A stretch of DNA of 64,000 nucleotides from NCBI RefSeq assembly GCF_000176855.2, contig NC_015138.1, positions 744,001 to 808,000 on the forward strand, written 5' to 3'. Position numbers and translations under genes: made by a program. Numbering within the stretch: position 1 is the first letter of the stretch; each line of letters opens with the position of its first letter. Under the pieces are notes generated by a model that did no database searches, was not told where the DNA came from, and saw only the letters and a program-made list of their open reading frames with translations. Below are positions 21,449-40,762 of this stretch, piece after piece. The DNA is from Paracidovorax avenae ATCC 19860 (GTDB taxonomy: Bacteria > Pseudomonadota > Gammaproteobacteria > Burkholderiales > Burkholderiaceae_C).

Positions 21449-24400
21449 ATGCGTCAAGGCATGGGGGGAGGGCGCACGCGTCCTGTTCGGGCGTGGATGA
21501 TTCTGGCGGCACGGCTGGCATTGGCGCTGGCCGCGCTGGTGCTGCTGAGCGCCCGCGCAGGCAGCCCGGAGGTGTCGCGCGGCCTGGCATGGCTGCAGGC
21601 ACAGGTCGGGGCGGACGGCGCTCTCGCGGGTAATGCACGCGGCGCCCATCCGCTGCAGGCGCTTTCCGAAACCGTGCGCACCCTGGCTGCGCTGTCCGGC
21701 CCGTCTGCCGTTGCCCCCCCGTTGACTGCACGGCTGGCAGCAGGGGCGGGAGACGACACCGAATGGATGGCGCGGGCCGCCCTGGCGTTGCGCACCGCGG
21801 GCTGCCCGTCCGATTCCCTGGAGGCTTCGCTGCGCGCGCGCCAGTCGGCCGACGGCGGCTTCCCGGCATCGGCCGCCCCCGGCGAACCCTCCACGCTCCT
21901 CGACACGCTTTGGGCCCACGACGCGCTGGCGCTGGCCGACGGCGGCACCTCCGCGGGCGCTGCGCCCGCCCGGGCATGGCTGCGTGCAGTGCAGCAGGAC
22001 GACGGTGGCATGGCGGGCGAATCCGCCGGTGGGCGCGTGCAGGCCACGGCCCTGGCCGTCCAGGCATTCACGCCGGGCGCCGCGGCGGATGCCGCGCAGC
22101 AGGCCGCGGTGCTGCCCATGGTGGCGTGGCTGGCGGACCGGCAGCAGACCGACGGCAGCTGGCACGGCAGTGTCTATCTCACCGCGCTGGGCCTGCATGC
22201 GCTCACGCTGCAGGGGGCGGATTCGGCAGCGCGCGGCGCCGCCCGGCAGTGGCTGGTGGCCGCACAGGCCGCGGATGGCAGCTGGTCGGGCGACGCCTTC
22301 CTGACGGCCGTCGCCCTGCGCGCCCTGGCGGCGGAACCCCCCGCCACGCCCGTGGCCGCAGCACTGGCCGGCCGGGTGGTGGATGCCGCCAGCGGCCAGC
22401 CCCTGGCGGGCGCCACGGTGGAACTCTCGGGTGCCGCGGCGCAGGCCGCCACCTCCGGCGCGCAGGGGGCCTTCCGGTTCTCCGGGCTCGCCGCGGGCCG
22501 GTACGAACTGCGCGTGACGCTGGCCGGCTACGCGGCGCTGGTGCGCCCGGCGGAACTGGCCACCGGGCAGCAACTGGACCTGGGCCTGCTGGCCCTGGCG
22601 GGAACATCCACCACGGGGGCGATCCGCGGACAGGTGCTCGATGCGTCGGGCACGCCCGTCGGTGACGCGCTCGTGGCGCTGGACGCCGGCGCCGGCGCGC
22701 GCACCGACACGCAGGGCCGCTACCGCATCGACGGCGTGGCGCCGGGCCCCGTCGGCCTCACGGCCTCGCGCGACGGCTTCCGCGCCGTGCAGGCCAGCGG
22801 TACCCTCGCCGCGGGTCAGACGCTGGTGTTCTCGCCCACGCTCACGTCATCGTCCGAGCCGGCACCGCAGCCCACGGCGGCGCGTTTCAAGGGCCGCGCC
22901 GTGGACGGGCAGGGCCAGGGCCTGGGCGGCGTGTCGGTGGCCATTGGCGCTGCCACCACGGGTGCCACCGGTGCCACGGGATCGTTCGACCTGCAGGCGC
23001 CCGCCGGCAGCTACCGCGTGGCTTTCTCCCGCAGCGGCTACCGCTCCGCATCCGCCGACGTGCTGGCCGCGTCCGGCTCCGTGGTGGACTTCGGCGATGT
23101 CGTGTTGCAAGCCGTGCGCACCACCACCGAGGTCGCGGGCCGTGTCACCGATGCCGACACCGGGACCGCCATCGCCAATGCGGAGGTGTCGGGCGGCGGT
23201 GCCAGCGCGCGCAGCGCGGCCGACGGAAGCTATGCGCTGTCCGGCATCACCTCCACCCGCTTCGACCTGCGCGTCGTCGCCGTGGGTTATCTCACCCAGT
23301 CCTGGCGCCTGGAGGCGGCCGAGCCCGCGCAGGTGCGCAAGGACTTCGCGATGGCGCCGGCCGGCACGGGTGCCGTCCGGATCACCACGCCGGCCGCCTC
23401 CACGGGCCAGGCCGGGGCGAACGCCTCCGTCGCGGTCACGGCGTCCGTGGAGCACACCGGTGGCGATCCGCGCGACCTGGTCGCCCAACTGGCGGTGCTC
23501 GATGCCCAGGGCGCATCCATCGGCCTCGCGCCGGCCCTTGCTCCGTCGGGCAGCGAGCCGCTGGGCGCCTTCACGCTGTCGCAGGGCGAGGCGCGGCCGC
23601 TGCGCTTCGCCTGGAACACGGGGCAGTTCGCGCCCGGTGCCTATACCCTGCTGGTGCGGGTCGTCCAGGCCGGCTCCGCGAGCCGCGAGAACCCGGCCGG
23701 CCAGGTGCTCGCCACCCGCAGCCTCCCGCTGGAGATCCGGGGCGAGGCGCTGTTCGACGGCGCCGTGGCGGCCCATCCGCCGGTCGTGCGCGCACAGGCC
23801 GCCACGCCGGTCGATCTGCACGCCGTGATCCGCAGCACGGGCAACCTCGCGCTGCCCGCTCAGGCCTACCGCCTGACCATCGTGGACGAGGCGCAGGGCG
23901 ATACCGTCGCCACATTCGAGGCGAGCGCAGGAGCGCTGGCGCCAAGCATGCCCGCCACGCTGTCGTTCGGCCGCTGGGTGCCCTCGCGTCCCGGCAGCTT
24001 CGCGTTGCGCCTGGCCGCTGCCACGGGCGATGCCCAGGGCGTGGCGCTGGGCCGCCTCTACGCGGGCGACACCGCCACGGGTGCCTACACGGTGGACCGG
24101 CCCGTGGTGCCCACGGGAACGCAGACCGTGCGTGCCACGGTGCGCATCACGGGCGAGGACGCGGCCACCGGCGGAACCACGAACCCGCTGTCCGCGGCCA
24201 TCAAGTCGGCGATCCAGAAGAGCGTCACCTACGGCGACGTGCAGGCCGCCGCCTGGACGGCCGGCAACCAGTGCCAGGGCTGCCACGTGCAGACGCAGGC
24301 CCTCGTGGGCGGCGAGCTCTCCCGTGGCCTGACCGACCACGATCCCAGGCTGCGCAATGCCATTTACAACACCGTGGCCCTCTACCGCCAGCCCGATGGC

Positions 24401-27400
24401 GCGCTGCGCGACGATGCCTTCGGCTTCTCCAAGGCCGAGACGCTGCTGAACCTCTGGGCACTCAACGCCTGGCACAAGAAGGGCGAGATCACGCCCACGC
24501 TGGCGAGCGCGGCCTCCTACACCCAGCGGGTGCAGGACGGCGACGGCGGCTGGAGCACCGACTACACGGGCGGCTGGTGGACGGCGCGGGCCTCGCAGAC
24601 CGCCTTCAACGTCAAGAACCTGGTGGCGGTGGCGGACCAGCTGGGGCAGCGCAAGCCGTGGGTGCAGCATGCGGCGGAGACGTTCAGCGAGGGGGGCGGG
24701 CTCTCCGGTGCCTACCACCTCTACAACGATGCCGGCCGGTTGCTGGTGACCAACAGCGATGCAGGTACGGTGGCGCAGATCGGCCAGGACGGGCGCCTCA
24801 GCGTGTTCGCGTCGGGCATCGACCGGCCTGCCGGCATGGCCATGGGGCCGGACGGGCTGCTGGTCGTCGCCAGCCGTAGCGGCATCTATTCGGTATCGCC
24901 GTCCGGCGGCACGCCACGGCTGCTCAGCCCCCTGGCGGACGCCATGGGTCCGGTGTTCACGCCGTCCGGCGACCTGTATGTCGCGCACTACGGTCACAAC
25001 ACGGTCTATCGCATCCTGCCTTCCGGCGAGGCCCAACCTTTCTTGTCCGGTGCTCCGCTGGCCGGTCCGACCAGCCTGGCGGTGGATACCGAAGGCCGCC
25101 TCGTCGTCGTCAACTACAACGCCCGCAAGATCGTGCGCTTCCGCCTGGACGACAAGTCCTACGACACGCCCGTCTCGCTGCTCTACGGCAATCCGCGTTC
25201 GGTGGTGAAGGAAGGTTCCGGCTGGCTGGTGGGCACGAACAACGGCGCCTACCGCTTCAACGCCGACTGGCAGGGCCAGCGCCTGAGTTTCGCTCCGGCC
25301 GAGGGCGTGGCCGTCCTGCAGGACGGCACCATCTTCACGTCCGACGGCGGGCAGCGCGTCTATAAGCTGGCCGCGCAGGCGCCCGACGTGGATGCGCTCG
25401 TCGCCGGCTACGACGCTTCGGCGCAGCGCGGTGCGCAGTGGTTGCTGAACGATGCCAACATCAACCCGTCGAGCAACCTAGAGCTCGCGCACCAGCTGAT
25501 CGGCCTGGGCAGCGCCCAGCGCCGCTTTGCCGGCACGCCGCTGGCGCAGACCCTGCACGACCGCATGGCGGCCGTGGGCGCGGCACTCAAGGCGCGCCAG
25601 CGTGCCGATGGCGGCTGGGGCTGGTACGACTACCACGGCAGCGATTCGATGGTCACGGCCCAGGTGGGCTATGCGCTCGACTACCTGAACCCGAGCCCCC
25701 AGGACCCCTACATCCTCAATGCGGTGCAGTTCCTGCTGGCGCGCCAGCAGGCCGACGGCTCGTGGATGAGCGAGAACGGCCTCTTCACCACGCGCTACGG
25801 CGCCACCTCGTGGGTGGAAGTCTGGCTGCCCGTGGCGCTGGAGCGGGTGGGCGGCATCGACACCGACCTGCGCCTGCGCTTCGCGCCCGACGTGCAACTG
25901 GCCAACCCGTCGCTCGCGCCCACGCAGTCCGCTGCGCAGCCCGATGGGTCCACGGACTACCTCTGGAAGCTCGTCGGCGTGACCACCAAGGCCCGCCAGA
26001 TCGAGTTCGACCTGACGCTGGACGGCCTGCGGCCCGGTGAGTCGCGGCCCTCGTCCACCTTTGCGGCGCTCACCTTCCGCAACAGCTTCCTGGGCGACAG
26101 CGTGGACGCTCCGGTGGATATTCCCGCAGTGAAGGCCTCGGCCTATCTGGGCATCGGCGTGTCCACCGACCGGGCCGCCTATCCGGCGAGCACGCCGGTG
26201 GCCATCACCGCCCGGGTGAGCAACTCCGGCGCGGGTGCCGCGTCCGGCCACGTGGCCCTGGCCATCGCCACGCCTGCGGGTGGCACGGTGGCGGACCTGG
26301 GCCGCGTGCCGTTCAGCGCGCTGGCTGCCGGTGGCACCATCGATCTGCCGGCCACCTGGAACACGGCAGACACGCAGGCCGGCAGCTACCGCGTGGTGGC
26401 ACGCCTGGCCGATGCGGCGGGCCTGCCGGTCGAGGAAGCCGTGGCGGATTTCCGCATCGTCGCGGATGCGAGCGGCGGCACCGGCCTCACGGCCCGCGTG
26501 CAGACCGACCGGCGCAGCTACGAGCCCACGGACACGGTCCGCATCGCCAACCGGCTGCAGAACCTCGCGGCCAACCAGGCCTGGAACGACCTCAAAACCA
26601 CCACTACCGTCACCGGCTCGGACGGCGCCGAGCGCTGGTCCGCGCAGGCGGCCGTGTCCACGCTGCCGGCCCAGGGCCTGCATGACTTCGGCCATGTGCT
26701 GCCGCCTTCCGGCCTGCCAGCGGGTGATTACGCCGTGCGCCTGGTGGCCCGCAGCGCCGGGGGCGAGACCGTGGCGAGCGCCACCACCACGTTCACCGTG
26801 CGCAGCACGGCCGATACCGGCGCCGGCGTGCGCGGCACGCTGCAGGCGCAGCCCGCCGTCGCCGCCATCGGCGAGCCCGTGCAGCTGTCGCTCGCGCTGG
26901 ACAACGCCGGCAACGCCGACGTGCGCAACGCCACGGTGCGCGTGCGCATCCTGGACGCCGGCAGCGACCGCGTCGTCGCCACCTTCACGCGCCCGGGCGT
27001 GGACCTGGTGCGGGGCACGCCGCTGACCCTGTCCTGGCCCTGGACGGCCGACGGCACGCCCGGCACCATCCTGCCCGCGGCCGCATCCATCGAGGTCGCT
27101 GCCGGGCAGGAGGTGACCTTGTCCACCACCACGATCCAGCTGCGCCAGGCGGCCCCGGCGGCGACCGTCACCGCGGCCATCGGCAACGGCAGCGATGCGC
27201 GCCTGCTGGTCCTGGTGGCTTGCAGCGCGGCGGACGACGGGCAGCCGCCGTCCGCGGCCTGCGACGAGGCCAAGGCCCAGGCCCTGCGGGACGACCTGGC
27301 CACCCGCGGCCTGACCGCGAAGGTGGTGACCACGCGCGCCGAGTTCGAAACCGAAATGCGCTGCGGCCGCTACAACGTGTACTGGATCAGCGGCGGCGCG

Positions 27401-29080
27401 CAGAAGCTCGGCGACGTGGCCGTGCGCGAAGTGCGCGAAGCCGCCCGCCGCGGCGCGGGCCTGCTGGTCGATGGCGCCACGGCGGACCGCGACGCGGTGC
27501 TGCTCGAGGCCATCGGCGTGCAGGCGCAGGGCACGTCCGGCCTGCAGGGCGCGGTCGCCACGCTCACCGGGCCGGTCTATCCGCAGGGTGGCGGGCTGCC
27601 CACGCCGGGCCAGCCGCAGCGCCTGGCCGCGCAGGGCGCCACCGTGCAGGCCACGCTCACGGGCGGCGGCGTGGCGGTGGCCGGCCGTGCCATCGGCCGC
27701 GGCCGGGGCCTCGCCATGGCCTTCAGCCTGTCCACGCTGCTGGCGCGTCCCGGCGCAGGCACGGATGCGTTCCTGGGCACGTTCGTCAGCGACACGCTGC
27801 AATACCTCACCGTGCCCGCGGTGAACACCCGCGTGCCCGGCAGCCTGCAGAGCCTGTCCACCGTGCTGCGCAACCCCGGCACGCAAGCCCTGCAGGTGAC
27901 GGTGCGGGCGCGGCTGCCGCAGGGCGCGCAGGCCCTGGACGCCATCCCCGACGCCAGCGGCGCCGTCGCGGGCGCTTCGGTCGTCGAATGGAGCGTGCCG
28001 CTCGCGGCCGGTGCATCCACGCAGCTGATCCTGCACGCCACGGCCACCGCGCCGGGCCGCTACGACGTGCCGTGGGAGATTTCCGCGGTCTTGGCGGGCG
28101 CGTCCGGGGCGGCGCCCGCGGTGCAGACGCTCGCGCAATCCTTCGAGATCCGCGAGGCCATGGATCTGGCGCGCGACGCGCAGGCCGCGGCCGATGCCTT
28201 CGCGGCAGCGGGTGGCGGCAGCGCGGCGTCTTCCGCGCGCAATGCGGTCGCGTCCGCCGTGCAGTCCATGGGCCAGGGCCTGCCCGCGCAGAGCCTCGCC
28301 CCCTGGACCGCCGCCGCCGACGCCCTGCGCGGAGCGGCCGGCACGGGTGCCGACGCAGCGCGTGCCGCCATCGCCGAGGCACTGCAGTCCGCCCAGCGGC
28401 AACTGTGCGGCCAGTGGGCCTGCATCACCGGCGACCTGGACTTCCAGGTGCGCGGCCAGTCCGCCCGCGAGGTGCCCCTGCAGGACACCATCGTCGGCAG
28501 CCGCACGGTGTTCAACCGCTGCCCGCCGCAGATCAAGGACATCCCCGTCACCTCGCAGTGGGTGCTGCGGCGCACCGGCGCCACCGTGCAGCACCTGTGG
28601 GACAACCTCACGATCCCCGGCTACCAGAACAACCGCCGCGACAACGGCTGGCAGGCCCAGGGCCAGAACGGCGACGTGGTGGACGCCACGCTCACCGCCG
28701 AATGGCAGGGCCAGGTGCTGCACCTCGACCGCGACAGCTTCCGCATCGTCGTGCTCCCGCCCGTGCTGGCCGGAAGCGTCAGCGCCAGCCCCGCGCGGGC
28801 CCGCGCGGGGCAGAACGTGACCCTGTCGCGCACGGTACGCAACAGCGGGGCCATGGGCAAGGACATCCCCGTGCAGTTGCGCGTGGTCAACCTGACGCGG
28901 GGCACCGCTTCCGTCGCCTGGAGCCAGTCGATGACGCTCAACCCCGGCGAGACGAACAGCGGCAACGCCAACTGGCAGGTCCAGGGCGCGGCGGGCGACG
29001 CGCTGCGCATCGAACTGGTCGCCACCGTGAACGGCACCGTGCAGGTGCTGGGCACGGCCGGCTTCGCCATCGAGCCCTGA
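21449..29080 (+). CDS. Giant secreted multidomain protein: alpha-toroid, carboxypeptidase-regulatory, beta-propeller and CARDB-like domains (2543 aa)
   Basis: Signal peptide with cleavage near LLSARA-GS. Approximate domains: prenyltransferase/squalene-cyclase-like alpha-toroid with QQTDGSW-type repeats (40-300); four tandem CarboxypepD_reg-like modules (306-385, 388-465, 477-555, 561-640); Ig-like modules (650-900); a second toroid beginning with a CQGCH heme-c-like motif (Cys942, Cys945, His946) and GGWSTDYTGGWW near 1033; an NHL/SMP-30-like beta-propeller inserted at about 1091-1321; the rest of the toroid with RQRADGGWGWYDY to about 1485; CARDB-like repeats (1567-1900); a glutamine-amidotransferase-like fold (1917-2110); helical and Cys-containing parts; a last CARDB-like module (2440-2543). 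ATG 21449 follows AAGGGGGG. The transglutaminase-fold gene follows directly. Function unknown; it may be a surface scaffold or partner for that protein. Confidence 0.85.
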   Translation: MRQGMGGGRTRPVRAWMILAARLALALAALVLLSARAGSPEVSRGLAWLQAQVGADGALAGNARGAHPLQALSETVRTLAALSGPSAVAPPLTARLAAGAGDDTEWMARAALALRTAGCPSDSLEASLRARQSADGGFPASAAPGEPSTLLDTLWAHDALALADGGTSAGAAPARAWLRAVQQDDGGMAGESAGGRVQATALAVQAFTPGAAADAAQQAAVLPMVAWLADRQQTDGSWHGSVYLTALGLHALTLQGADSAARGAARQWLVAAQAADGSWSGDAFLTAVALRALAAEPPATPVAAALAGRVVDAASGQPLAGATVELSGAAAQAATSGAQGAFRFSGLAAGRYELRVTLAGYAALVRPAELATGQQLDLGLLALAGTSTTGAIRGQVLDASGTPVGDALVALDAGAGARTDTQGRYRIDGVAPGPVGLTASRDGFRAVQASGTLAAGQTLVFSPTLTSSSEPAPQPTAARFKGRAVDGQGQGLGGVSVAIGAATTGATGATGSFDLQAPAGSYRVAFSRSGYRSASADVLAASGSVVDFGDVVLQAVRTTTEVAGRVTDADTGTAIANAEVSGGGASARSAADGSYALSGITSTRFDLRVVAVGYLTQSWRLEAAEPAQVRKDFAMAPAGTGAVRITTPAASTGQAGANASVAVTASVEHTGGDPRDLVAQLAVLDAQGASIGLAPALAPSGSEPLGAFTLSQGEARPLRFAWNTGQFAPGAYTLLVRVVQAGSASRENPAGQVLATRSLPLEIRGEALFDGAVAAHPPVVRAQAATPVDLHAVIRSTGNLALPAQAYRLTIVDEAQGDTVATFEASAGALAPSMPATLSFGRWVPSRPGSFALRLAAATGDAQGVALGRLYAGDTATGAYTVDRPVVPTGTQTVRATVRITGEDAATGGTTNPLSAAIKSAIQKSVTYGDVQAAAWTAGNQCQGCHVQTQALVGGELSRGLTDHDPRLRNAIYNTVALYRQPDGALRDDAFGFSKAETLLNLWALNAWHKKGEITPTLASAASYTQRVQDGDGGWSTDYTGGWWTARASQTAFNVKNLVAVADQLGQRKPWVQHAAETFSEGGGLSGAYHLYNDAGRLLVTNSDAGTVAQIGQDGRLSVFASGIDRPAGMAMGPDGLLVVASRSGIYSVSPSGGTPRLLSPLADAMGPVFTPSGDLYVAHYGHNTVYRILPSGEAQPFLSGAPLAGPTSLAVDTEGRLVVVNYNARKIVRFRLDDKSYDTPVSLLYGNPRSVVKEGSGWLVGTNNGAYRFNADWQGQRLSFAPAEGVAVLQDGTIFTSDGGQRVYKLAAQAPDVDALVAGYDASAQRGAQWLLNDANINPSSNLELAHQLIGLGSAQRRFAGTPLAQTLHDRMAAVGAALKARQRADGGWGWYDYHGSDSMVTAQVGYALDYLNPSPQDPYILNAVQFLLARQQADGSWMSENGLFTTRYGATSWVEVWLPVALERVGGIDTDLRLRFAPDVQLANPSLAPTQSAAQPDGSTDYLWKLVGVTTKARQIEFDLTLDGLRPGESRPSSTFAALTFRNSFLGDSVDAPVDIPAVKASAYLGIGVSTDRAAYPASTPVAITARVSNSGAGAASGHVALAIATPAGGTVADLGRVPFSALAAGGTIDLPATWNTADTQAGSYRVVARLADAAGLPVEEAVADFRIVADASGGTGLTARVQTDRRSYEPTDTVRIANRLQNLAANQAWNDLKTTTTVTGSDGAERWSAQAAVSTLPAQGLHDFGHVLPPSGLPAGDYAVRLVARSAGGETVASATTTFTVRSTADTGAGVRGTLQAQPAVAAIGEPVQLSLALDNAGNADVRNATVRVRILDAGSDRVVATFTRPGVDLVRGTPLTLSWPWTADGTPGTILPAAASIEVAAGQEVTLSTTTIQLRQAAPAATVTAAIGNGSDARLLVLVACSAADDGQPPSAACDEAKAQALRDDLATRGLTAKVVTTRAEFETEMRCGRYNVYWISGGAQKLGDVAVREVREAARRGAGLLVDGATADRDAVLLEAIGVQAQGTSGLQGAVATLTGPVYPQGGGLPTPGQPQRLAAQGATVQATLTGGGVAVAGRAIGRGRGLAMAFSLSTLLARPGAGTDAFLGTFVSDTLQYLTVPAVNTRVPGSLQSLSTVLRNPGTQALQVTVRARLPQGAQALDAIPDASGAVAGASVVEWSVPLAAGASTQLILHATATAPGRYDVPWEISAVLAGASGAAPAVQTLAQSFEIREAMDLARDAQAAADAFAAAGGGSAASSARNAVASAVQSMGQGLPAQSLAPWTAAADALRGAAGTGADAARAAIAEALQSAQRQLCGQWACITGDLDFQVRGQSAREVPLQDTIVGSRTVFNRCPPQIKDIPVTSQWVLRRTGATVQHLWDNLTIPGYQNNRRDNGWQAQGQNGDVVDATLTAEWQGQVLHLDRDSFRIVVLPPVLAGSVSASPARARAGQNVTLSRTVRNSGAMGKDIPVQLRVVNLTRGTASVAWSQSMTLNPGETNSGNANWQVQGAAGDALRIELVATVNGTVQVLGTAGFAIEP

Positions 29081-29150
29081 CCGGAGGCGGACGCACAGCA
29101 TGCCAACGACACCGCACTGCATATCAAAGAAATCGAGGGAGAACCCATCC

Positions 29151-32677: not shown

Positions 32678-32751
32678 TCGATGATGATCGCTATTTCTAG
32701 CAGGCTAAGAGCGGCTAACACGACCTGTTCATAGCCCAGCGCGAAGCAGCT

Positions 32752-33177
32752 ATGCTTGGCGCCCTCATGGCAAGAAGACCCGTCAGCAAAGAACTGTGGC
32801 GACAGCTGCAGCCGCTCATCCCGGCCTTCGTGCCCTCGGCCAAAGGCGGGGCGCGCAAGCGCACCGTCAGCGATGAAGCCGCACTCAATGGCATCCTATT
32901 CGTGCTGCACACCGGCATCGCCTGGGAGGACCTGCCGCAGGAACTCGGTTTTGGCAGTGGCATGACGTGCTGGCGGCGGCTGCGCGACTGGAACGCTGCC
33001 GGGGTGTGGGAGAAGCTGCACCACGCCATGCTGGTGCGCCTGCGCGAGCACGACCAGATCGATTGGAGCCGGGCAAGCATCGATGGCTCGTCGGTACCAA
33101 GCCCCCGGGGGGCCAGGAAACAGGGCCCAACCCCACGGACAGAGGCAAACTCGGCTCCAAGCGGCACATCGTCGTAG
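32752..33177 (+). CDS. IS5-family transposase, N-terminal frame (OrfA)
   Basis: 141 codons in frame one. The DUF4096-like N-terminal part (ILFVLHTGIAWEDLPQELGF, then CWRRLRDWNAAGVWEKLH) is the helix-turn-helix region typical of IS5 transposases, and ASIDGSSV supplies the first catalytic Asp. The frame runs out of homology at the run CCCCGGGGGGCC near 33105, where a -1 shift joins OrfB. ATG at 32767 (MARRPVSKELW) is an alternative start; neither has a clear ribosome site. Confidence 0.85.
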   Translation: MLGALMARRPVSKELWRQLQPLIPAFVPSAKGGARKRTVSDEAALNGILFVLHTGIAWEDLPQELGFGSGMTCWRRLRDWNAAGVWEKLHHAMLVRLREHDQIDWSRASIDGSSVPSPRGARKQGPTPRTEANSAPSGTSS

Positions 33178-33575
33178 ACGCGCGGGGCATTCCGCTGGTG
33201 GTGCTGGTCAGTGGTGCGAATCGGCACGATTCGATGATGTTCGAGAAATGCATCGATGCTCTGCCAGCCGTCAGGGGACTGCAGGGCAAGCCGCGTCGCA
33301 GGCCATCGAAGCTGCACGCCGACAAGGGCTACGACTATGAGCGCTGCCGTGTCTTCCTGAGACAGCGGGGCATCGCCAGCCGGATTGCCAGACGAGGCAT
33401 CGAAAGCAGCGAGCGGCTGGGTCGGCATCGGTGGGTGGTGGAGAGAACGCACGGATGGTTTGCAGGCTTCGGCAAGCTGCGCATCCGATTCGAGAGGCGG
33501 CTGGACATCCACGAAGCGCTATTGAAACTGGCGGCAGCGATCATCTGCGCGCGCTTCGTGGATCGGTGGTGTTAG
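33108..33575 (+). CDS. IS5-family transposase, C-terminal frame (OrfB, by -1 frameshift)
   Basis: Continues the transposase in the -1 frame relative to OrfA: PNPTDRGKLGSKRHIVVDA, then LVSGANRHDS, LHADKGYDYERC (second catalytic Asp) and RHRWVVERTHGWFAGFGKLR (catalytic Glu). Stop TAG at 33573-33575 overlaps the right inverted repeat. Two-frame organisation is normal in the IS427 group, so a programmed shift at the C/G run near 33105 is more likely than damage. The start coordinate is only the approximate slip site. Confidence 0.8.
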   Translation, partial: GGQETGPNPTDRGKLGSKRHIVVDARGIPLVVLVSGANRHDSMMFEKCIDALPAVRGLQGKPRRRPSKLHADKGYDYERCRVFLRQRGIASRIARRGIESSERLGRHRWVVERTHGWFAGFGKLRIRFERRLDIHEALLKLAAAIICARFVDRWC

Positions 33576-33582
33576 CCGCTCT

Positions 33583-34413
33583 AAGGGGCTGCTGCGGACC
33601 GGCAGCGTGGACGGCCTGACGGGCGAGTGCCTGAGCGGCGACCTGCTCACCGCCGTGATCTGGAGCTGGTTCGCGGCCACGGACAGCCACAGCCGGCTGA
33701 GCCAGCGCGCCGCCGGCATGGTGGAGAACCCGGGGCTGAGCTACGGGCTGTTCCACGCGGTGGCGCAGCCGGTGTACAGCTGGGGCGTGGTGTGCCGGGT
33801 GGAGTTCCCCGGGGTGAACATCGACATCGGGCACATCCGCAACCTGGCTTGGTCGCGGAACAACGACAAGGCCCAATGGGTGGCGTACAACCGGATGCGG
33901 GGCCAGTACATGAGCGCACTGGAGCACGCGGTGCCGGAACGATTCTTCAATGATCCGGCGAAATGCAACCTCGCAGGCAGCACCAACCCGGTGGCCGGGT
34001 TGCCGGACTGCCCCCAAGGCATCAGCGCGGTGAAGGCGCTGGGGCTGGCCGCGCAGCAAGGCCAGAAGATCTACACGATCACGCCGGAGGTCTATGCGAA
34101 CCAGCCCCACATCGTGAACACGGCGCTGGTGGCGCACAGCCCGGGCACGCGGGCAAAGGTGCAGGCGGCGCTGGACGAGGGCAAGGAGGTGGCCATCCAC
34201 GAGGCGCCGATTGCGCAGAGCGGGTGGGTGGGGGGCGGGGTTTACGGTGATTGAGGAGGGAACGGGGGCTGGGGCTTACACGATTGAAGGGGGAGTAATG
34301 GAGGAGGCTTGTATGAGTTTATCTTTGGCGCAGGCATAGGCGCGCTTTTGATTGCCTCCGGTCTTATTGTTGGCCAGGCGTTCAGTGCATTGATGCTTTC
34401 TACCTTTGGCTAG
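33583..34413 (+). pseudogene. Orphan second cassette: conserved pre-tip segment plus a different hydrophobic tip
   Basis: Bases 33583-34303 repeat 31317-32038 nearly exactly, without the upstream two thirds of the carrier and without a start or signal peptide. The frame is broken by one extra G in the run at 34230-34235 and restored by one missing base at about 34289-34293. The net frame is unchanged, and reading through both gives a tip of about 38 residues starting SNGGGLYEF, containing FGAGIGALLIASGLIVG, and ending LMLSTFG before TAG at 34411. The tip shares no sequence with tip 1 beyond the GG junction. It would need recombination into the upstream gene to be expressed, as with orphan Rhs or CdiA tips. 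Confidence 0.85.
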
Positions 34414-34524
34414 GCCCTTTAATTTTGTTCTCGCTGTCAGTCGTATTGTTTGCTGTGAGCGGGGATGCTGCTCTGTCGTGCGTCCGGTCCTGAATCGAAT
34501 AATGCAATTTTATACGGGTGGATC

Positions 34525-35010
34525 ATGAGCGATGTTGAAATAATTTGGTGGACTGCAGCTTTTCTTGGTATTTTATTTTTGGTATTTTATGATTTGCTCT
34601 GTTTAATTGTCCTGCTCTTCGCTTTGGGCTTGCTTTCCGTTAAATTTATTTTTTTCACGGATGATTTTTTAAATTATCTTATCAGACTTGTTGTTGCAAT
34701 TGTTCTTGGAGGGTTGGCAATACGAACGAAAGTGGGCGGCGCATCAATATTGTCGCTGTGTTTGCTTTTGTCATCCATGTGGATTCATGGATCCAGCCCC
34801 GATGTTTTGATTTTCGGTGGCGTCTTGCTTGTTTTTGTAATGCCTATGCTGTTCGTAAAACTGCGTGGTTTTGGCGGACCTATGAGTATCTGTTTTTTGG
34901 GCATAAAAAAATTAGATGATGCCGCAGGAAGATTCTTTGTGCCTTTATTCTGGATTGCTATGGTCTTCCCGTTTGTAATGCTATTTATAACTCGAAGAGG
35001 TATTGCTTGA
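34525..35010 (+). CDS. Integral membrane protein, candidate immunity protein of cassette 2
   Basis: 161 residues starting MSDVEIIWW, with about five hydrophobic helices (IIWWTAAFLGILFLVFYD, LIVLLFALGLLSVKFIFF, LIRLVVAIVLGGLA, then two more, the last before FITRRGIA). AT-rich like the flanking tip DNA. It lies 111 bases after the tip 2 stop, the position expected for an immunity gene. No family recognised. An in-frame ATG at 34465 would add 20 residues and is not favoured because the hydrophobic N-terminus would be preceded by a non-conserved polar stretch. Confidence 0.6.
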   Translation: MSDVEIIWWTAAFLGILFLVFYDLLCLIVLLFALGLLSVKFIFFTDDFLNYLIRLVVAIVLGGLAIRTKVGGASILSLCLLLSSMWIHGSSPDVLIFGGVLLVFVMPMLFVKLRGFGGPMSICFLGIKKLDDAAGRFFVPLFWIAMVFPFVMLFITRRGIA

Positions 35011-35137
35011 TGGGTTTATTTATTTCATTAAATATGCTAAATAGCTATTCGCGATTTCTCATTCATTCGGTGTCTTTTGTGCCAGGAGGCCTGGAAGAAT
35101 CAACAAGATCAAAGCCGAAATCAGAGTTAAATCCTGT

Positions 35138-35278
35138 TTCGCGGTACCGTAGCAGTTATTCGGCGACCCGGCGATATACAACTTGGCAGGGAGCACCAAC
35201 CTGGTGGCAGGGCTACCGGACCGCCCCAAGGCATCAGCTCGTTAGAGCGCCGGGACTGGCCGCGCAGCAGAGCCAAGG
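35138..35278 (+). pseudogene. Decayed fragment of the conserved pre-tip segment (third copy)
   Basis: The 372 bases between the genes at 34525 and 35383 hold no credible gene. Within them, 35138-35278 aligns with 31670-31806 of the carrier gene: GGCGACCCGGCGA, then ACTTGGCAGGGAGCACCAAC, GCATCAGC and CTGGCCGCGCAGCAG are shared in order, with substitutions and small indels that destroy the frame. It is a GC-rich island in AT-rich surroundings, a relic of another cassette. The ORF that runs across it is meaningless. Confidence 0.8.
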
Positions 35279-35382: not shown

Positions 35383-35928
35383 ATGAATATTCAAAATATC
35401 GAAGGCATGGCCCTGTTTGTTTCGGAGGCACGCGAGATTGAGCATATGCTCATACCTCAAATAGCAATAGTTGGCATTGACTCGGCATTGCTGAAACTTG
35501 CTGAAGTCCTGAAAGAAATGAAAGTCGAAGGAAATGAAGAGGTTCGATTGAAAACCAGCTTCGATGAGCATGATGGGGAGATGGTTTTGAGGGTATATGG
35601 GAGACTTTATTCTGGCTTGAGTGAATTTCAATTGCCGGAAAGCTTCGGGTGGATTTGTCCGCTAAGAGGGATTGAAATTGACTATTGCGATAGACCCGCA
35701 TTTGGCCTTGACCTCAGATCTGATAACGAGCAGCGAGTTTTGTTTTCAATGGGTGAGGTTGCTGCCAAAGTAATTGGTGAATTGCTCGATATCTTTGTGG
35801 CTGAAAAGGGGGCGGAGAGATTCCCCCTGGAACATGATGGTTATATGCCGTCTATCTCTCCTTTGAGCTACGAGCTTATTTTTCTCAAAGCTGGCTCGAC
35901 GCTTGGCAGAAATATGCTTGCAGGGTGA
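35383..35928 (+). CDS. Soluble hypothetical protein, possible immunity protein
   Basis: 181 residues without membrane helices or signal peptide, acidic overall, with LIPQIAIVGIDSALLKLAEVLKEM near the start and ESFGWICPLRGIEIDYCDRP in the middle. No family recognised. It follows directly after the third, decayed copy of the pre-tip segment, the place of an immunity gene in such loci. Intermediate-to-low GC points to acquisition. The ribosome site is weak. Also possible: an unrelated gene carried in the island. Confidence 0.6.
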   Translation: MNIQNIEGMALFVSEAREIEHMLIPQIAIVGIDSALLKLAEVLKEMKVEGNEEVRLKTSFDEHDGEMVLRVYGRLYSGLSEFQLPESFGWICPLRGIEIDYCDRPAFGLDLRSDNEQRVLFSMGEVAAKVIGELLDIFVAEKGAERFPLEHDGYMPSISPLSYELIFLKAGSTLGRNMLAG

Positions 35929-36008
35929 TTAAATGTCGGGTTGGCTTGTTGGGTAGTTGGTCTTGCGACTGGGATGGAATAATTTTCGATTGATCAACCT
36001 GTTTTGTG

Positions 36009-36206
36009 ATGAAATATTTAATTCCGGCTATAAGTGTCTTTCTTCTTGGATTCGCATCTTTGGGGTTGAGCGAAAAAAGACGTAGAAAAACAGCAACCAA
36101 AAAAGATTATTTGTTATATTTTTTCTCATTGCTGTTATTTATTTTGATGGTGTCTAATAAAGACGTGCGGGAGTTTGGTGCGAATATATGGTGGGCACAT
36201 GGGTAG
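36009..36206 (+). CDS. Small two-helix membrane protein
   Basis: 65 residues: helix at about 3-20 (YLIPAISVFLLGFASLGL), a cationic cytoplasmic loop EKRRRKTATKKD, then a second helix YLLYFFSLLLFILMV. AT-rich. No family recognised. The codon before the ATG is an in-frame GTG; I use the ATG. One of a series of small membrane proteins in the island. Confidence 0.5.
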   Translation: MKYLIPAISVFLLGFASLGLSEKRRRKTATKKDYLLYFFSLLLFILMVSNKDVREFGANIWWAHG

Positions 36207-36225
36207 AAAATTGTGTGTCCAATAA

Positions 36226-36462
36226 TTGGCCTATAACTTCACTGAACTGAATGAATTTCCGGTATATGGGGTCATTGTGAAGATGGTTTTGGTTTTTATT
36301 TTCTGCTTGTCATTGTTGGCAAACTATTTTGCTTGGAAATATTTGGCTCAGCCTTGGGATTTCTTTGCAATGGTGATTTCCGTGGTGGTTGCTTGGTCGA
36401 CTTTTAGAAAACTAGTTAGACCATCTAGAGCTGTAAAGATGAATGGTGACGAGCCGCGCTGA
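36226..36462 (+). CDS. Small membrane protein or gene remnant
   Basis: 78 codons opening with TTG immediately after an in-frame TAA, so either a TTG start or a truncated gene. One or two hydrophobic helices (VIVKMVLVFIFCLSLLANYF, then FFAMVISVVVAW) and a basic tail. ATG at 36283 would give a shorter protein. AT-rich, no family recognised. Confidence 0.4.
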   Translation: MAYNFTELNEFPVYGVIVKMVLVFIFCLSLLANYFAWKYLAQPWDFFAMVISVVVAWSTFRKLVRPSRAVKMNGDEPR

Positions 36463-36554: not shown

Positions 36555-36821
36555 ATGATTGAGTATTTTGCTTCAATGCTCTATCAATGGATAAAAATAT
36601 ATCCGCTGGTTAGTCTCCTGCTGTTCTTTCTTGCGTTCAGTGCTGGAATGAGAAACGGCTTGCATGGATGGTTGACTTTTTTGATTTTGATATTGATTTC
36701 GGCTGTGTGCTTTTTGCTGGAAGGGTTTTTCTACGGTGCTTTACAGGTGCTGGCGTTGATTTTGGGAGGCTATTATTACTACCGCCTTGGCAGAAATAAA
36801 GTCAGTCTGCATAAGGGGTGA
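36555..36821 (+). CDS. Small membrane protein with three helices
   Basis: 88 residues starting MIEYFASMLYQWIKIYP, with helices at about 17-31, 38-56 and 58-78, and a basic end GRNKVSLHKG. No clear ribosome site. Just upstream, 36505-36535 has a short GGT-GGC-GGT stretch followed by ATATGAGTTT that resembles the GGG-Leu-Tyr-Glu junction of tip 2 (34298-34322), so this gene might again follow a cassette relic. No family recognised. Confidence 0.5.
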   Translation: MIEYFASMLYQWIKIYPLVSLLLFFLAFSAGMRNGLHGWLTFLILILISAVCFLLEGFFYGALQVLALILGGYYYYRLGRNKVSLHKG

Positions 36822-36910
36822 AGGTTATTCTGAGCTGCGGATGCCCCAGCGGTGGCGCCGCTAGTAGGAAGAGCCTTCATGGGATTTGCATTGAAGTCGG
36901 AGGTGAAATC

Positions 36911-37084
36911 ATGCATGCGTCTGGCAAGAGTGATGGTAAGTATGGACTGTTTGTCCTGTTGCTCACAGTGATGGTGGGTATTTGGGGTGGAGATTTATAT
37001 TCTTTTAGAGGCTTGGTCGTTCTGTGCTGTGCATTTGGAGTTTTTCTGATTTTCTTGGATGTCTATAAGAGAGCGCCGAAATAA
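36911..37084 (+). CDS. Small membrane protein (57 aa)
   Basis: 57 residues starting MHASGKSDGKYG, with two hydrophobic helices (LFVLLLTVMVGIWGG and LVVLCCAFGVFLIFL) and the end VYKRAPK. The start is set by an excellent ribosome site, GGAGGTG, six bases before ATG 36911; the frame is open further upstream but without such a site. That site makes this one of the more credible small genes of the island. No family recognised. Confidence 0.6.
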   Translation: MHASGKSDGKYGLFVLLLTVMVGIWGGDLYSFRGLVVLCCAFGVFLIFLDVYKRAPK

Positions 37085-37185: not shown

Positions 37186-37284
37186 ATTCCAGAAGAAACG
37201 CTTGTATATATGAGTTTGGATGGAAAGATGTTTCCTTTCTTTTCTGTCGGATTAGGAAGCGGTTTGATCTTGTTGGGAAATTAA
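37186..37284 (+). pseudogene. Decayed paralogue of the 88-aa membrane protein (C-terminal third)
   Basis: The 457 bases from 37085 to 37541 contain no intact gene. This part reads, in one frame to TAA, a 30-residue end with MSLDGKMFPFFSVG and GLILL in it, identical to the 88-residue protein at 26 of 30 positions, while the DNA differs at many third positions. The N-terminal two thirds are missing. It is the relic of an older, related immunity-like gene. Confidence 0.85.
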
Positions 37285-37337
37285 TATCGATACTGATCAT
37301 CTGTCTTGCAGTTCAGAACGCAGAAAGGTTGGCCGCA

Positions 37338-37433
37338 CTGGATAGGCTTTATCACACAGTGGCGCAGCCCATTGACAGCTGGGGCGTGGCACTGGAGGCT
37401 GAGTTCCCTGAAGTGAGCGGTGATATCGAGTTC
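37338..37433 (+). pseudogene. Decayed fragment of the conserved pre-tip segment (fourth copy)
   Basis: Reads LYHTVAQPIDSWGVALEAEF and EFPEVSGDIEF, matching LFHAVAQPVYSWGVVRRVEF and EFPGVNIDIGH of the carrier. It lies 53 bases after the immunity-like relic, the same order as the intact immunity-like gene followed by copy 2. Divergence is much greater than between copies 1 and 2, so it is older. The rest of 37085-37541 shows nothing I recognise. Confidence 0.75.
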
Positions 37434-37541
37434 CGAGGTAAATGGTTATTTCGTCGATCGATATGAAAATATATCCATGGCATTTTTCTGTTAATGAATT
37501 ATTGTCGTTCTTCGTTGTATTTTTGTTATGAATAAATTTTT

Positions 37542-37925
37542 ATGTCTCTTGTCATTGCTGAATTAATTTTTGCTTTTTATCTTTTGATTGCTGGTGAAGT
37601 TTTTTACTACTTGATAGAGGGCGATTTGCGTCATGCTGTTGCGAAAATTTTGCTTCGCATCCTGCTGGTTTTTGGTGCTCCGCTGATCGTTGGTTATATT
37701 GTCTTCGGTGCCACGGTGTCCATGGCGGTGCTGATGTTTTCCTATCTCGCTGGGGTTTTTATTTGCGGCATTTATTTGAAGCCGATAATAATTGAGAGAC
37801 AACATCAAATTCTTCTGGATCTGCCATATTTCGATATGGAGAAATATCCTTTCTTGAGTGCTGGATCGCTTGTCATTGCTTACTGGGTGATGGCAGCTCT
37901 TTTCATCAAGGAAATTATTGAATAA
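37542..37925 (+). CDS. Integral membrane protein, candidate immunity-like
   Basis: 127 residues with four helices (about 3-23, 36-55, 58-78, 105-123) starting MSLVIAELIFAFYLLIAGEV. AT-rich. It comes directly after the fourth cassette relic, again in the position expected for an immunity gene. No ribosome site is evident in the AT-rich leader. No family recognised. The next 160 bases (37926-38085) show no gene. Confidence 0.55.
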   Translation: MSLVIAELIFAFYLLIAGEVFYYLIEGDLRHAVAKILLRILLVFGAPLIVGYIVFGATVSMAVLMFSYLAGVFICGIYLKPIIIERQHQILLDLPYFDMEKYPFLSAGSLVIAYWVMAALFIKEIIE

Positions 37926-38085
37926 TTTTCGATATGCCGTTTTGATTTCTCGAGAAGAGTGCGCCTGGTATGGTGCGAACGGAATTGTGGACGCTCAGCG
38001 ACGGATGTTCCAGTGTAAGCAAGGGCTTGGTCGGTCTGATGCGTGAAGCACTCACGCGGATATTCTTGATGGCAGGAGTTGGTGC

Positions 38086-38577
38086 ATGCAGGATCTGCTT
38101 TTGGTTTTTTATCTGGCAAGCCTCGGTGCCTTGGCTGGGGTGCTGCTCGTTGGTCTGAAACGGGTAAGGTTCGAGTTCGCGATTGTTTTTTTCTTGATCA
38201 TCACTTTGTTTGCCGGACTTTGTTTGAAGGCCGCTATCGGCGCGATGGACGCCTGGTGGAAGCTGGGTGCTGTGGCCGCGGTGTCATGCCTCTGCTTCGT
38301 GGTTGCCTGCCGAAGCTGGAGCGAGGAAGCCACGGCGGTGGGCGGTCAGTCGAGATGGTCTCAAGCACTGTTCGCGCTGGTGCTGCTGGGCTTCAGCACC
38401 GGCTATGCATTCCATAGCGACGTATTGATGATGGGCTTCCTGGTGGGGCGCGATGAGCAGCTGGCGATGTGGCCCTTATGGCTGTCCGGTACGCTGGCGA
38501 TGGGCCTTGTGGGAATGAGGCTGCTGCTTCAGCTGTCGAAAAAATCGCCGCGCCGGGCGAAATCTGAAGGACGCTAG
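38086..38577 (+). CDS. Integral membrane protein, first gene of a hypothetical operon
   Basis: 163 residues starting MQDLLLVFYLASLGALAGV, with about five helices and the basic tail KKSPRRAKSEGR. CAGGAG lies seven bases before the ATG. GC rises here compared with the preceding genes. Four bases separate its stop from the next start, so it is co-transcribed with 38582-40762. No family recognised; a membrane immunity or transport role is conceivable but unproven. Confidence 0.7.
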   Translation: MQDLLLVFYLASLGALAGVLLVGLKRVRFEFAIVFFLIITLFAGLCLKAAIGAMDAWWKLGAVAAVSCLCFVVACRSWSEEATAVGGQSRWSQALFALVLLGFSTGYAFHSDVLMMGFLVGRDEQLAMWPLWLSGTLAMGLVGMRLLLQLSKKSPRRAKSEGR

Positions 38578-38581
38578 TGCC

Positions 38582-39001
38582 ATGAGTGCATTGCTGCGCT
38601 ACCAGGAGTTGTTCGCCCTGGCGCTGGAGGGGGATGGGCTGCCTCTCAGCGAGTTCATCGACAAAGTCCGGCTCGGTGAGGTTTCGCTCAGCGAGGTGGA
38701 TGAAATCGTCGAGCATATAAAGCAGTCATATGACGGCCTTCCCTGCCGCCTCAGGGCAACCGCGCTGACGTGTCTCTTTCAAATGCATGCCGAAGCAGGC
38801 TATGAAGTGGCTCGACGCGATCTTCCCAAGGTGGTCGCGGAGTTCCGCAGGCATGCGGGCTATCTGCACCAGGTGGTCGGTTTGCTGGTGAAGCACCGGG
38901 GGCTCCGGGTCCCCCTGGCACAGGATGATTACGACACGACCATGAGGGTCGCTTTCGCGTTGAACGAGGGCATCGATGTGAACAGGTTTTTGAAGAAATG
39001 A
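38582..39001 (+). CDS. Hypothetical helical protein, paralogue family member 1
   Basis: 139 residues, soluble, mainly helical. It resembles the next gene in order: RLRATALTCLFQMHAEAGYE, ARRDLPKVVAEFRRHAGYLHQ, then DDYDTTMRVAFALNEG compared with the corresponding residues of 39056-39487. The two are therefore diverged tandem paralogues. No known family recognised. HEAT-like helical pairing is a guess. Operon-coupled to the membrane protein upstream. Confidence 0.7.
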   Translation: MSALLRYQELFALALEGDGLPLSEFIDKVRLGEVSLSEVDEIVEHIKQSYDGLPCRLRATALTCLFQMHAEAGYEVARRDLPKVVAEFRRHAGYLHQVVGLLVKHRGLRVPLAQDDYDTTMRVAFALNEGIDVNRFLKK

Positions 39002-39055
39002 TTTCTAACGTCGAACCGGTCCACACGACGCTCTGGGTTTTGATGGGGAGGATGC

Positions 39056-39487
39056 ATGAATTTGCTGTCATGCTATGACAATGCGATTGGCTTGGCCGAG
39101 ACCGGTGATTTCTCCGGGTTGGACAGCTTTTTCAAGCAATGGGGGAGCAGCCCCTCCTCCGGGGCGAATCGGGGCGAATGGCTGGACCATATGCTGCTGG
39201 GATACGGTGCCCTGGACGTTTCCATCAAGGCCTATTTGCTGGATGCCCTGGTGACGATCGACATGGAAGCTGCATGCAGGCTGGCGGAGAAGGATCTGGC
39301 GACTGCGTATTGGGATTTCAGATGGAGCGGCGGCGATGTCCATCAGCACCTTTCCATCATGGCCCAGATGGAAGGAGCCGACCTCCCTACGATCTGCCTG
39401 GATTACAACCAGAACATGGCGATGGCTTCGGCCGTGCTGGACGGTTCGAGTCTGAAACGGGTGTTGCATGACCAGGCCCAGCGCTAG
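39056..39487 (+). CDS. Hypothetical helical protein, paralogue family member 2
   Basis: 143 residues. Shares with the previous protein the block of ALxxxDxEAA, AxxDLxxxxxxFRxxxGxxHQ and DYxxxMxxAxAL. GGGAGG lies upstream of the ATG. Its end overlaps the next gene by 20 bases. Function unknown. Tandem diverged copies like this are common among immunity genes that accumulate against different effectors, which would fit the context. Confidence 0.72.
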   Translation: MNLLSCYDNAIGLAETGDFSGLDSFFKQWGSSPSSGANRGEWLDHMLLGYGALDVSIKAYLLDALVTIDMEAACRLAEKDLATAYWDFRWSGGDVHQHLSIMAQMEGADLPTICLDYNQNMAMASAVLDGSSLKRVLHDQAQR

Positions 39488-40214
39488 CCCGAAAGTGGCC
39501 ATTGCCGCCGCCCGTGCCGAGCTCGCGGAGGCCTATAAAGCGGCCAGGCTCGCGTTCGGCCATGTTTCACAGCGGCTGTTCGCCATCCACAACCTCTACC
39601 CTTTCGCCGAAGGGCTCAGCGCGTTCCCATCCGATGAGAACCTGGGATGGGCCCGGGCCATCGCGGCGCTTCCGGCTGACGGGCTGGAGGCGTGGGCCCG
39701 GCAACAAGGCGGATGCCGTCTTCTCGCAGCCGATGCAGAGCATCTTGCAGATCCAGAGGAGCATCCCGGCGGGCCGGTGCATGACGATGCGCCGTGCTCC
39801 TGCATCGCGGAATTCCAGGCCACCATGGAGCCGGAGCTTCTGGACGGCTCCATGCCCAGTGAGCTCGATGAATGGATCGAACGGGCCTGCGAGGGTCGTT
39901 TTGTTCCCGGAGCGGAGGCCGTGGCGCTGGCGCGGCATATCGCCCGAAACTTCGACCGTTATGGCGGGGAAGTGCAATCGAGCGTGCTTTTCTTTCTGGG
40001 CAAGATCTCACCGTCCGTGGCTTGCGAGGTGGCGCTCGACGGCTTGGGGCGCGTGCATGCGCGCGCCTGCTCCTGCTTCGAGGAGCTCCAACGCCTGGTC
40101 GATCTGATGTTGCGCCACGGGGAAGCGACTGGCCGCGAGGCGCCGGTGGATGTCGATGGGTACTTCCGGGCTGCCTACCTGCTGCTGCATCCGCCCCGGC
40201 GGCCGGCGCCATGA
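39468..40214 (+). CDS. Hypothetical protein of the same operon
   Basis: 248 residues, soluble. Its C-terminal third (EVQSSVLFFLGKISPSVACE, then VALDGLGRVHARACSCFEEL and VDVDGYFRAAYLLL) has the same helical rhythm as the two preceding paralogues and may be a longer, more diverged relative. The N-terminal half (FGHVSQRLFAIHNLYPFAEG) is unique. It overlaps the previous gene by 20 bases and the next by 4, so translation is coupled. No family recognised. Confidence 0.7.
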   Translation: MTRPSASPKVAIAAARAELAEAYKAARLAFGHVSQRLFAIHNLYPFAEGLSAFPSDENLGWARAIAALPADGLEAWARQQGGCRLLAADAEHLADPEEHPGGPVHDDAPCSCIAEFQATMEPELLDGSMPSELDEWIERACEGRFVPGAEAVALARHIARNFDRYGGEVQSSVLFFLGKISPSVACEVALDGLGRVHARACSCFEELQRLVDLMLRHGEATGREAPVDVDGYFRAAYLLLHPPRRPAP

Positions 40215-40762
40215 ATCTGCTGCGGTTCCTGCTGCAGGCAGGAGGCGAAGGCTTCAGGGCCACGGAGTTTTCCTCTGCCGCGGTAAGCGCCGGTATTCCC
40301 GTGGGGGTTGTGGCCCACGTCCGGAAGCCGCAGGGTGGGCCGGCCATGGATTCCGGTTTGCCGGGCACTGGCGGCGATGCCTTCCTGCTGTGGCGATCCA
40401 CCAAGGTGGACTATGCGGTATCCAGGCAGCAGTACCGGGCGCAGCAGGCGTTCGGCGCGCCGGAATTCCTGCAGTCCTGGAAGAGGGAGGAAGAGGCCAT
40501 CCTGGACTACCTGGGCTGGATGGCGGACCGGCTGCCGCGCGTGTCCGATTACTGCGACGGCGCATCCTTCCTGCTGCTGAAGCTGATCTACGGCGAGGAG
40601 GAAGAGGGCGGTGCCGGCACCACGGGGTGGTTGTATTCGGCCGCGCTCATGCAGATGCTGGCCCGCATGGGTGCGGGGATGGAGGCGGATCAGGAACTGG
40701 TGGACGTCCATTTCGCCCGCGTGGAATCGGGGGCGTCCTCTTGCTCTCCCTCTCGGCGATAA
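40211..40762 (+). CDS. Hypothetical protein, last gene of the operon
   Basis: 183 residues, soluble, acidic in the middle (YGEEEEGG). Starts MNLLRFLLQAGGEGFRATEF and overlaps the preceding stop by ATGA. No family recognised. It ends eight bases before the 5' end of RNase P RNA, so the rnpB promoter must lie inside its coding sequence. GC is like the host chromosome. Confidence 0.7.
   Translation: MNLLRFLLQAGGEGFRATEFSSAAVSAGIPVGVVAHVRKPQGGPAMDSGLPGTGGDAFLLWRSTKVDYAVSRQQYRAQQAFGAPEFLQSWKREEEAILDYLGWMADRLPRVSDYCDGASFLLLKLIYGEEEEGGAGTTGWLYSAALMQMLARMGAGMEADQELVDVHFARVESGASSCSPSRR

Follow-up and report, generated by a model that had tools for sequence, protein, structure and literature searches.

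The stretch of DNA analysed here, referred to as the window, comprises 64 kb (positions 744001-808000) of the complete 5,482,170-base genome of Paracidovorax avenae ATCC 19860. Its + strand carries a locus that we analysed as a candidate polymorphic toxin system, and that consists in order of a gene for a 2543-residue partner protein (P0001), a gene for a carrier protein (P0002) with a variable C-terminal end (the tip), a small gene coupled to that tip, an insertion sequence (IS), decayed copies of the domain that precedes the tip (the pre-tip domain), and an array of small genes that runs to 40762 (Table 1). The nearest named relatives of the locus lie in Paracidovorax cattleyae (L007) and in further Paracidovorax and Acidovorax.

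The carrier open reading frame (ORF) encodes 1104 residues, and the database entry begins 17 codons later, at 1087 residues. A Pfam search detects a transglutaminase-like domain at residues 314-472 (E 4.7e-14). The position that we take, from the motif of the family, to be that of the catalytic cysteine is occupied by Ala, a replacement that is invariant in 50 aligned rows; across 72 main carriers it holds Ala in 59 and another residue in three, with the motif unrecognised in ten. The transglutaminase fold of the carrier has lost its Cys and probably binds rather than cuts. A hydrophobic N-terminal stretch is present in 91 of 101 carrier-family proteins of at least 950 residues. Pfam scans at E 0.1 found no RHS repeats in P0002 and, in P0001 and P0002 alike, no TPS secretion domain, filamentous haemagglutinin repeats, PAAR, VgrG or Hcp domain; no RHS match fell inside the window among the matches listed (150 of 241 candidates scored). 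The pre-tip domain (31230-32039, P0002 residues 711-980) is modelled at high confidence (mean pLDDT 90.5), and the searches made for it yielded no fold assignment.

A protein search with P0002 residues 300-985 returned 491 relatives at E 1e-10 or better, the best 120 of which were listed and surveyed for their tips, leaving out the window's own entry P0003 and keeping P0002. The pre-tip end is complete in 116 of these carriers and 115 have a tip of at least 30 residues. When grouped by single-linkage BLAST (E 1e-3, half of the shorter tip covered), the 115 tips fall into 57 groups that share no BLAST similarity, all attached at one profile-defined junction. Even closely related carriers seldom share a tip: similar tips occur in one of 16 pairs with at least 90% body identity and in nine of 146 pairs at 80-90%, and P0004, with a body 97.5% identical to the window carrier (938/962), bears a different tip. 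The same boundary is visible in the DNA. Identity with the sister species G006 (locus L113) and with P. cattleyae, measured in 30-base steps, is 87-100% across 31800-32010 and drops past the junction to background, at 3-70% and nearly always 50% or less; the breakpoint falls within the codons of TGAGAYTIEGG. GC content is 0.70 at 31700-31999, then 0.47 and 0.36 in the following two 300-base steps. The original prediction, made from the letters of this DNA, described a GC-rich carrier that ends in an AT-rich hydrophobic tip and that should be constant up to the GAYTIEGG codons and variable after them. The fall in GC content, the collapse of DNA identity and the 57 tip groups bear this out, and a C-terminal end common to all homologues, which would have refuted it, is clearly not what these carriers possess. 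C-terminal tips are therefore exchanged on a conserved carrier body. The window's own active tip is matched among 1288 candidate proteins only by P0025 and P0049 besides itself; its relatives within the loci described below are those of L017 (Pseudomonas, 45% identical) and L018 (Sterolibacterium, 33%).

Tips do not change alone. A scan of a genome collection found 152 stretches that encode carrier relatives, of which the best 80 were kept, giving 78 loci; five loci from three sister genomes and the window itself completed the set. Units were counted as complete when the pre-tip profile extended to at least position 224 of 231 within a closed frame, and 97 qualified, 92 short-ended and five long-ended. 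With two ends shorter than 30 residues dropped, 90 tips entered the neighbour analysis. An ORF of at least 50 residues lies near the tip stop in 84 of them, compared with 260 of 370 random sites in the same loci; the informative part is the nature of this ORF, which has a predicted membrane segment behind 65 of the 90 tips and at 86 of the 370 random sites. Moreover, a predicted membrane protein follows 61 of the 66 tips shorter than 155 residues, and a soluble protein follows 14 of the 18 longer ones (Fisher p 8e-9). Next genes resemble each other in seven pairs, all of them within the 26 pairs with similar tips, and in none of the 3979 pairs with dissimilar tips. Among the 87 units with tips of at least 80 residues, 64 pairs have pre-tip bodies at least 70% identical (20 of them reach 90% identity or more, and 11 are pairs within a single locus). 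Tip and next gene both differ in 58 of these close pairs and are both shared in five; the one remaining pair combines a weakly similar tip with a different next gene, and no pair shares the next gene alone. Tip and next gene thus co-vary, in line with the tip-specific downstream genes that had been anticipated. In the window the two are also physically coupled as proposed, the tip's TGA stop overlapping the ATG of 32411-32677 in the sequence ATGA. This gene has a very weak match to the gene behind the related L017 tip (12.4 bits, E 8e-4 among 83 sequences).

The region downstream of the active tip probably records an earlier exchange. The segment 31314-31613 recurs at 33580-33879 with 96% identity, which over 300 bases is not chance, and 31964-32026 recurs at 34231-34293 with 90%; shorter repeats of 70-76% are supported through protein matches. 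All five pre-tip matches in the genome lie inside the locus. The second, near-identical pre-tip segment of the original prediction is thereby confirmed, and it does lead into another tip, which is known from G006 and P0004; this tip is no longer an ORF, its pieces lying in different frames. The first piece is 97.5% identical over 40 residues to the active tip of G006, and the tip of P0004 also matches. Because G006 carries the same tip with a relative of 34465-35010 directly behind it, the second tip was likely once active, and the present cassette was inserted before it. The IS at 32708-33585, which has six other copies in the genome at 100% identity and one at 91%, sits at the start of the displaced pre-tip copy and now separates the old and new cassettes. 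The two additional decayed pre-tip fragments and the decayed paralogue of the small membrane protein that had been noticed from the letters were likewise found (Table 1).

Behind the active cassette, all 12 later small genes are open. Eight resemble genes that stand directly after tips elsewhere, five of them strongly (34465, 36818, 37542, 38086 and 40211; E 8e-28 or better, computed against only 83 sequences). Nine of the 11 genes from 35383 on are collinear in G006, with about 71-93% identity, next to a different active cassette; 39056 was not found in G006, and 38582 is fragmentary there. The description of this region as an immunity-gene graveyard was therefore too strong, and on these comparisons the array looks more like a kept set of antidotes. 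Conservation of downstream genes independently of the tips had been put forward as an observation that would count against a toxin system. It is seen for the distal genes, where it is expected of orphan immunity genes, and not for the gene directly after the tip, which co-varies. Several tips stand in tandem in 14 of 70 loci. A good natural case of a tip array is L074 (9341-20646, Ottowia sp. oral taxon 894), with six consecutive tip units, of which one is a full carrier and five are shorter; several of the six have pre-tips more than 90% identical. In the window, an RNase P RNA (RF00010, 196.8 bits) at 40772-41109, right behind the last small gene, marks the end of the array.

Table 1. Features of the partner-carrier locus and its downstream array, in window coordinates
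Position	Strand	Feature	Basis or remark
21449..29080	+	Partner protein P0001, 2543 residues; signal-peptide-like start, CarboxypepD_reg (4 stretches) and CARDB	domain search
29100..32414	+	Carrier P0002, with a signal-peptide-like start, then a helical region, a transglutaminase-fold domain, the pre-tip domain and the variable tip	
30039..30515	+	Transglutaminase-like domain, residues 314-472; Ala at the catalytic Cys position, His435 and Asp472 kept	
31347..32039	+	Pre-tip domain; C-terminal end TGAGAYTIEGGSQGG is the exchange junction	profile, DNA comparison
32040..32411	+	Active tip, 124 residues, hydrophobic helices	
32411..32677	+	Small membrane protein, 88 residues, whose start overlaps the tip stop (ATGA); probably confers immunity to the active tip	
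32708..33585	+	Insertion sequence, ~880 bp; IS4/5-type transposase in two frames	between active cassette and displaced pre-tip
33580..34294	+	Second pre-tip copy, protein 90-91% identical, frame broken before the junction	
34288..34500	+	Second tip, broken into pieces that match the active tips found in sister species G006 and in P0004	
34465..35010	+	Small membrane protein; in G006 the gene right behind this tip is 72% identical	
35111..35251	+	Third pre-tip fragment, decayed	protein matches
35383..35928	+	Small gene kept in the G006 and P. cattleyae arrays; no match among genes directly after tips	
36006..36206	+	Small membrane-protein gene kept in G006; no match among genes directly after tips	
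36226..36462	+	Small membrane-protein gene kept in G006; no match among genes directly after tips	
36555..36821	+	Small membrane-protein gene kept in G006; no match among genes directly after tips	
36818..37084	+	Small membrane-protein gene; in P. cattleyae (L007) a relative follows the third tip and overlaps its end	E 8e-28
37189..37285	+	Decayed copy of immunity gene 32411-32677; counterpart at the same place in G006	76% identical
37344..37454	+	Fourth pre-tip fragment, decayed	
37542..37925	+	Orphan immunity-like membrane gene; relative directly after the active tip of P. cattleyae	E 4e-35
38086..38577	+	Orphan immunity-like membrane gene; relative directly after a tip in G014 (L091)	E 2e-36
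38582..39001	+	Small gene for a soluble protein, weakly similar to the gene behind the L015 long tip; fragment in G006	18.4 bits, E 8e-6
39056..39487	+	Small gene for a soluble protein, weakly similar to the gene behind the L015 long tip; not found in G006	14.1 bits, E 2e-4
39468..40214	+	Small gene for a soluble protein, weakly similar to the gene behind the L015 long tip; 90% identical in G006	16.9 bits, E 2e-5
40211..40762	+	Soluble orphan immunity-like gene; relatives directly after long tips in L009 and G009 (L096)	E 2e-36, 2e-34

What the tips are can be read in part from a domain scan of 84 of them, six short ends or near-duplicates of the 90 being left out. Most of the 57 tip groups contain no recognised family, and none was recognised in the long tips of L009 and L015. 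Toxin domains are nevertheless recognised in the tips of some relatives: NlpC/P60 in L046 and L067, Ntox16 in L083 and L084 (both with DUF6714 neighbours), and a NucA/NucB DNase in L059, where the next gene encodes a SUKH-1 domain protein. SUKH proteins are counted among immunity proteins in a survey of polymorphic toxins (Zhang et al. 2012; PMC3482391). DUF6310 was found in the tips of L052 and L058, the latter with a DUF5953 neighbour, and L070 has a Tox-ART-HYD1 match below the cut-off. These known toxin domains at the same slot, one of them beside a SUKH protein, together with the comparative genomics, support well the polymorphic-toxin-type system originally proposed.

By a simple hydropathy count, a membrane segment is found in all 115 database tips and in 86 of the 90 locus tips, compared with four of 370 random carrier segments. 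Most long tips place their membrane segments first, followed by a tail of about 43 to 215 residues. The four locus tips without a membrane segment include both NlpC/P60 tips, whose neighbours start, as judged by eye, with signal-peptide-like or lipoprotein-like sequence. From this pattern it seems that the carrier delivers into the periplasm and leaves the membrane step to the tip. Membrane segments in nearly all tips, and neighbours of short tips that are mostly membrane proteins themselves, could also be expected if the tips were interchangeable membrane anchors or variable surface segments (e.g. for immune or phage evasion) of a surface protein acting for itself, and the next genes its assembly partners. 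We consider this unlikely: the place of the tip is also taken by a DNase with a SUKH neighbour, by Ntox16 and by NlpC/P60, and the neighbours persist where a tip has been lost or broken, as antidotes would and assembly partners would not.

Rhs and CdiA loci combine a constant body and a junction motif with orphan tips and immunity genes downstream. The window shares this layout on a different carrier body, P0002 having neither RHS nor haemagglutinin repeats in the Pfam scan at E 0.1. Polymorphic toxins have been characterized by a conserved N-terminal trafficking part with diverse C-terminal domains, by a tip-specific gene directly downstream, and by nearby orphan immunity genes and standalone toxin cassettes (Zhang et al. 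2012; PMC3482391, consulted in part); the first is seen in the carrier family, the second in the co-variation of tip and next gene, and the third in the array of the locus. In the same portion of that survey, a transglutaminase domain that has lost a catalytic residue and stands behind a signal peptide or TM helix is described as always followed by RHS repeats. These toxins and the window carrier are alike in their signal-peptide-like start, their transglutaminase domain with a lost catalytic residue and their variable toxin end, and differ in that the published class bears RHS repeats, whereas the window carrier lacks them and its family's tips are mostly membrane-spanning; no mention of the 2543-residue partner was met in the part consulted. 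The original prediction, which knew of no description of such a carrier, is to be amended: the catalytic Cys is missing, and a related type with an inactive transglutaminase and RHS repeats is in print.

The relationship is close. Five units with tails of about 1800 residues use the same kind of junction; the three that were scanned carry RHS repeats, one with a weak GIY-YIG match at its end, and a partner relative lies upstream in the locus for four of the five. On one contig of Ramlibacter sp. WS9, a short carrier with a membrane tip (L014) stands beside a long-tailed one (L060) whose tail of 1896 residues is probably of RHS type. The RHS-less carriers are thus close cousins with a short tip in place of the RHS array. 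One may go further and regard the locus as the known inactive-transglutaminase RHS toxin (Zhang et al. 2012; PMC3482391, seen in part) with the RHS repeats lost in some lineages and membrane tips as ordinary toxin ends. The common body and junction, the scanned RHS repeats and the upstream partners make this a serious possibility, if one that stays well below an even chance, given that the RHS-less form is the commoner (92 of 97 complete-pre-tip units, a count biased towards the short form by a profile derived from short carriers), extends from Nitrospirae to Comamonadaceae and has its own, mostly membrane, tips. Its probability overlaps with that of the explanation we prefer because the two differ in classification and not in mechanism. 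As the RHS feature is absent from P0002, we file the locus as an RHS-less, membrane-tip variant of polymorphic toxins and not as an RHS subclass.

Membrane-acting polymorphic toxins are known from contact-dependent inhibition (CDI), on other carriers. In the part of the report consulted, CDI ionophores are polymorphic helical membrane toxins, five-helix membrane bundles that dissipate the membrane potential, and their membrane immunity proteins diverge strongly (Halvorsen et al. 2024; PMC11630599). Likened by description, the short tips of this family agree with them in pairing a putative helical membrane toxin with a membrane neighbour; the ionophores ride on CdiA with CdiB, and no such domain was found in P0001 or P0002 by the Pfam scan. 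The array has its counterpart in Vibrio cholerae, where an incoming effector-immunity module of the type VI secretion system displaces the old effector and pushes the old immunity genes and effector end downstream (Kirchberger et al. 2017; PMC5361080, consulted in part). The displacement that is likely for the window follows a similar pattern; no type VI part was found in the window carrier by the Pfam scan, and the array here also keeps decayed pre-tips and an IS.

Nine of 17 genomes of the genus have pre-tip matches, and 13 of 250 genomes sampled from the order have carrier matches, both counts including the window's own genome and the latter probably including some of RHS type. RHS-less carriers span Comamonadaceae to myxobacteria and Nitrospirae, and are also found in groundwater and other metagenome bins. 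The genus is plant-associated and several Paracidovorax and Acidovorax are plant pathogens, and with close relatives in these two genera the carrier might be aimed at a eukaryotic host and not at bacteria. We judge this most improbable in view of the immunity-type neighbours, the orphan arrays, the peptidoglycan-hydrolase-type tips and the family's presence in myxobacteria and metagenome bins.

P0001 is a conserved neighbour of the carrier. Of 43 loci that extend 5 kb or more upstream of a main carrier, 36 contain a relative of P0001, mostly directly upstream; a separate clustering gives 49 of 64 loci. CarboxypepD_reg (four stretches) and CARDB pass their cut-offs, and MG2-type and squalene-cyclase-type stretches fall below them. 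This mix, which also includes sub-threshold NHL or lyase-type stretches, is unusual for a secreted protein. Type II secretion-like genes lie near the partner-carrier pair in L120 (3939-12927), L069, L081, L011, L022 and L014; GspF, GspE and secretin of L120 score under the equivalog cut-offs, so that this secretion machine may be unusual. A type II-like operon stands beside the locus of the non-pathogenic relative Uliginosibacterium.

Overall, it is highly probable that the locus is a polymorphic toxin system directed against other bacteria that works by the following scheme. The carrier would be exported by Sec, its pre-tip domain presenting a strain-variable C-terminal tip, and carrier and partner would probably take the tip as far as the periplasm of the target cell. 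There, a hydrophobic tip would insert into the inner membrane, short tips such as the window's acting as a pore or ionophore and long ones using their membrane part to let a soluble toxin tail enter; for tips whose site of action is the periplasm (NlpC/P60), no membrane part would be needed. The gene after the tip would encode the antidote, membrane-bound for membrane tips and soluble for tips with soluble tails. A new tip-antidote cassette would arrive at the junction and shift the previous tip and its antidote downstream, giving the array of the window. Toxicity, immunity, periplasmic delivery, the delivery role of the partner and the pore action of the window's tip are what we infer within this scheme.

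Several observations weigh against it. The window's own tip matched no known toxin family in the Pfam search and is modelled as four helices at low confidence, and the membrane segments throughout come from the hydropathy count only. An ORF after the tip is weak evidence in itself, since so many random sites have one. In 19 of the 26 tip-similar pairs, most of them distant, BLAST finds no similarity between the next genes, and four of the five close pairs with both in common have bodies 79-96% identical, so that recent common descent helps these. Within the array, 35383, 36006, 36226 and 36555 (four of the 12 genes) match none of the 83 sequences directly after tips, and the matches of 38582, 39056 and 39468 are weak (14-18 bits) and all to the same L015 gene. 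A secretion operon was not found beside the window's carrier copy, and a literature search found no experiment on the carrier family.

More tentatively, at slightly less than an even chance, these loci may represent an undescribed class of interbacterial weapon. It would be a two-gene system that combines the large multi-domain partner with a Cys-less transglutaminase-fold carrier, in some bacteria beside a type II secretion-like operon of its own, and would deliver only to the target periplasm, the tip bringing its own inner-membrane device. Three kinds of tip would follow, those with a membrane part only, those that join a soluble toxin to it, and peptidoglycan hydrolases that lack a membrane part, each with immunity in the matching compartment.

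If the scheme is true, an RHS-less carrier family joins the known delivery proteins of bacterial competition, with a repertoire of tips that is mostly membrane-active, and its tip groups offer many candidates for pores, ionophores and membrane immunity proteins. Since tip type and immunity compartment are linked, it would become testable whether the carrier stops at the periplasm. The window itself would catch the displacement of a tip, with the likely earlier state surviving in its relatives.

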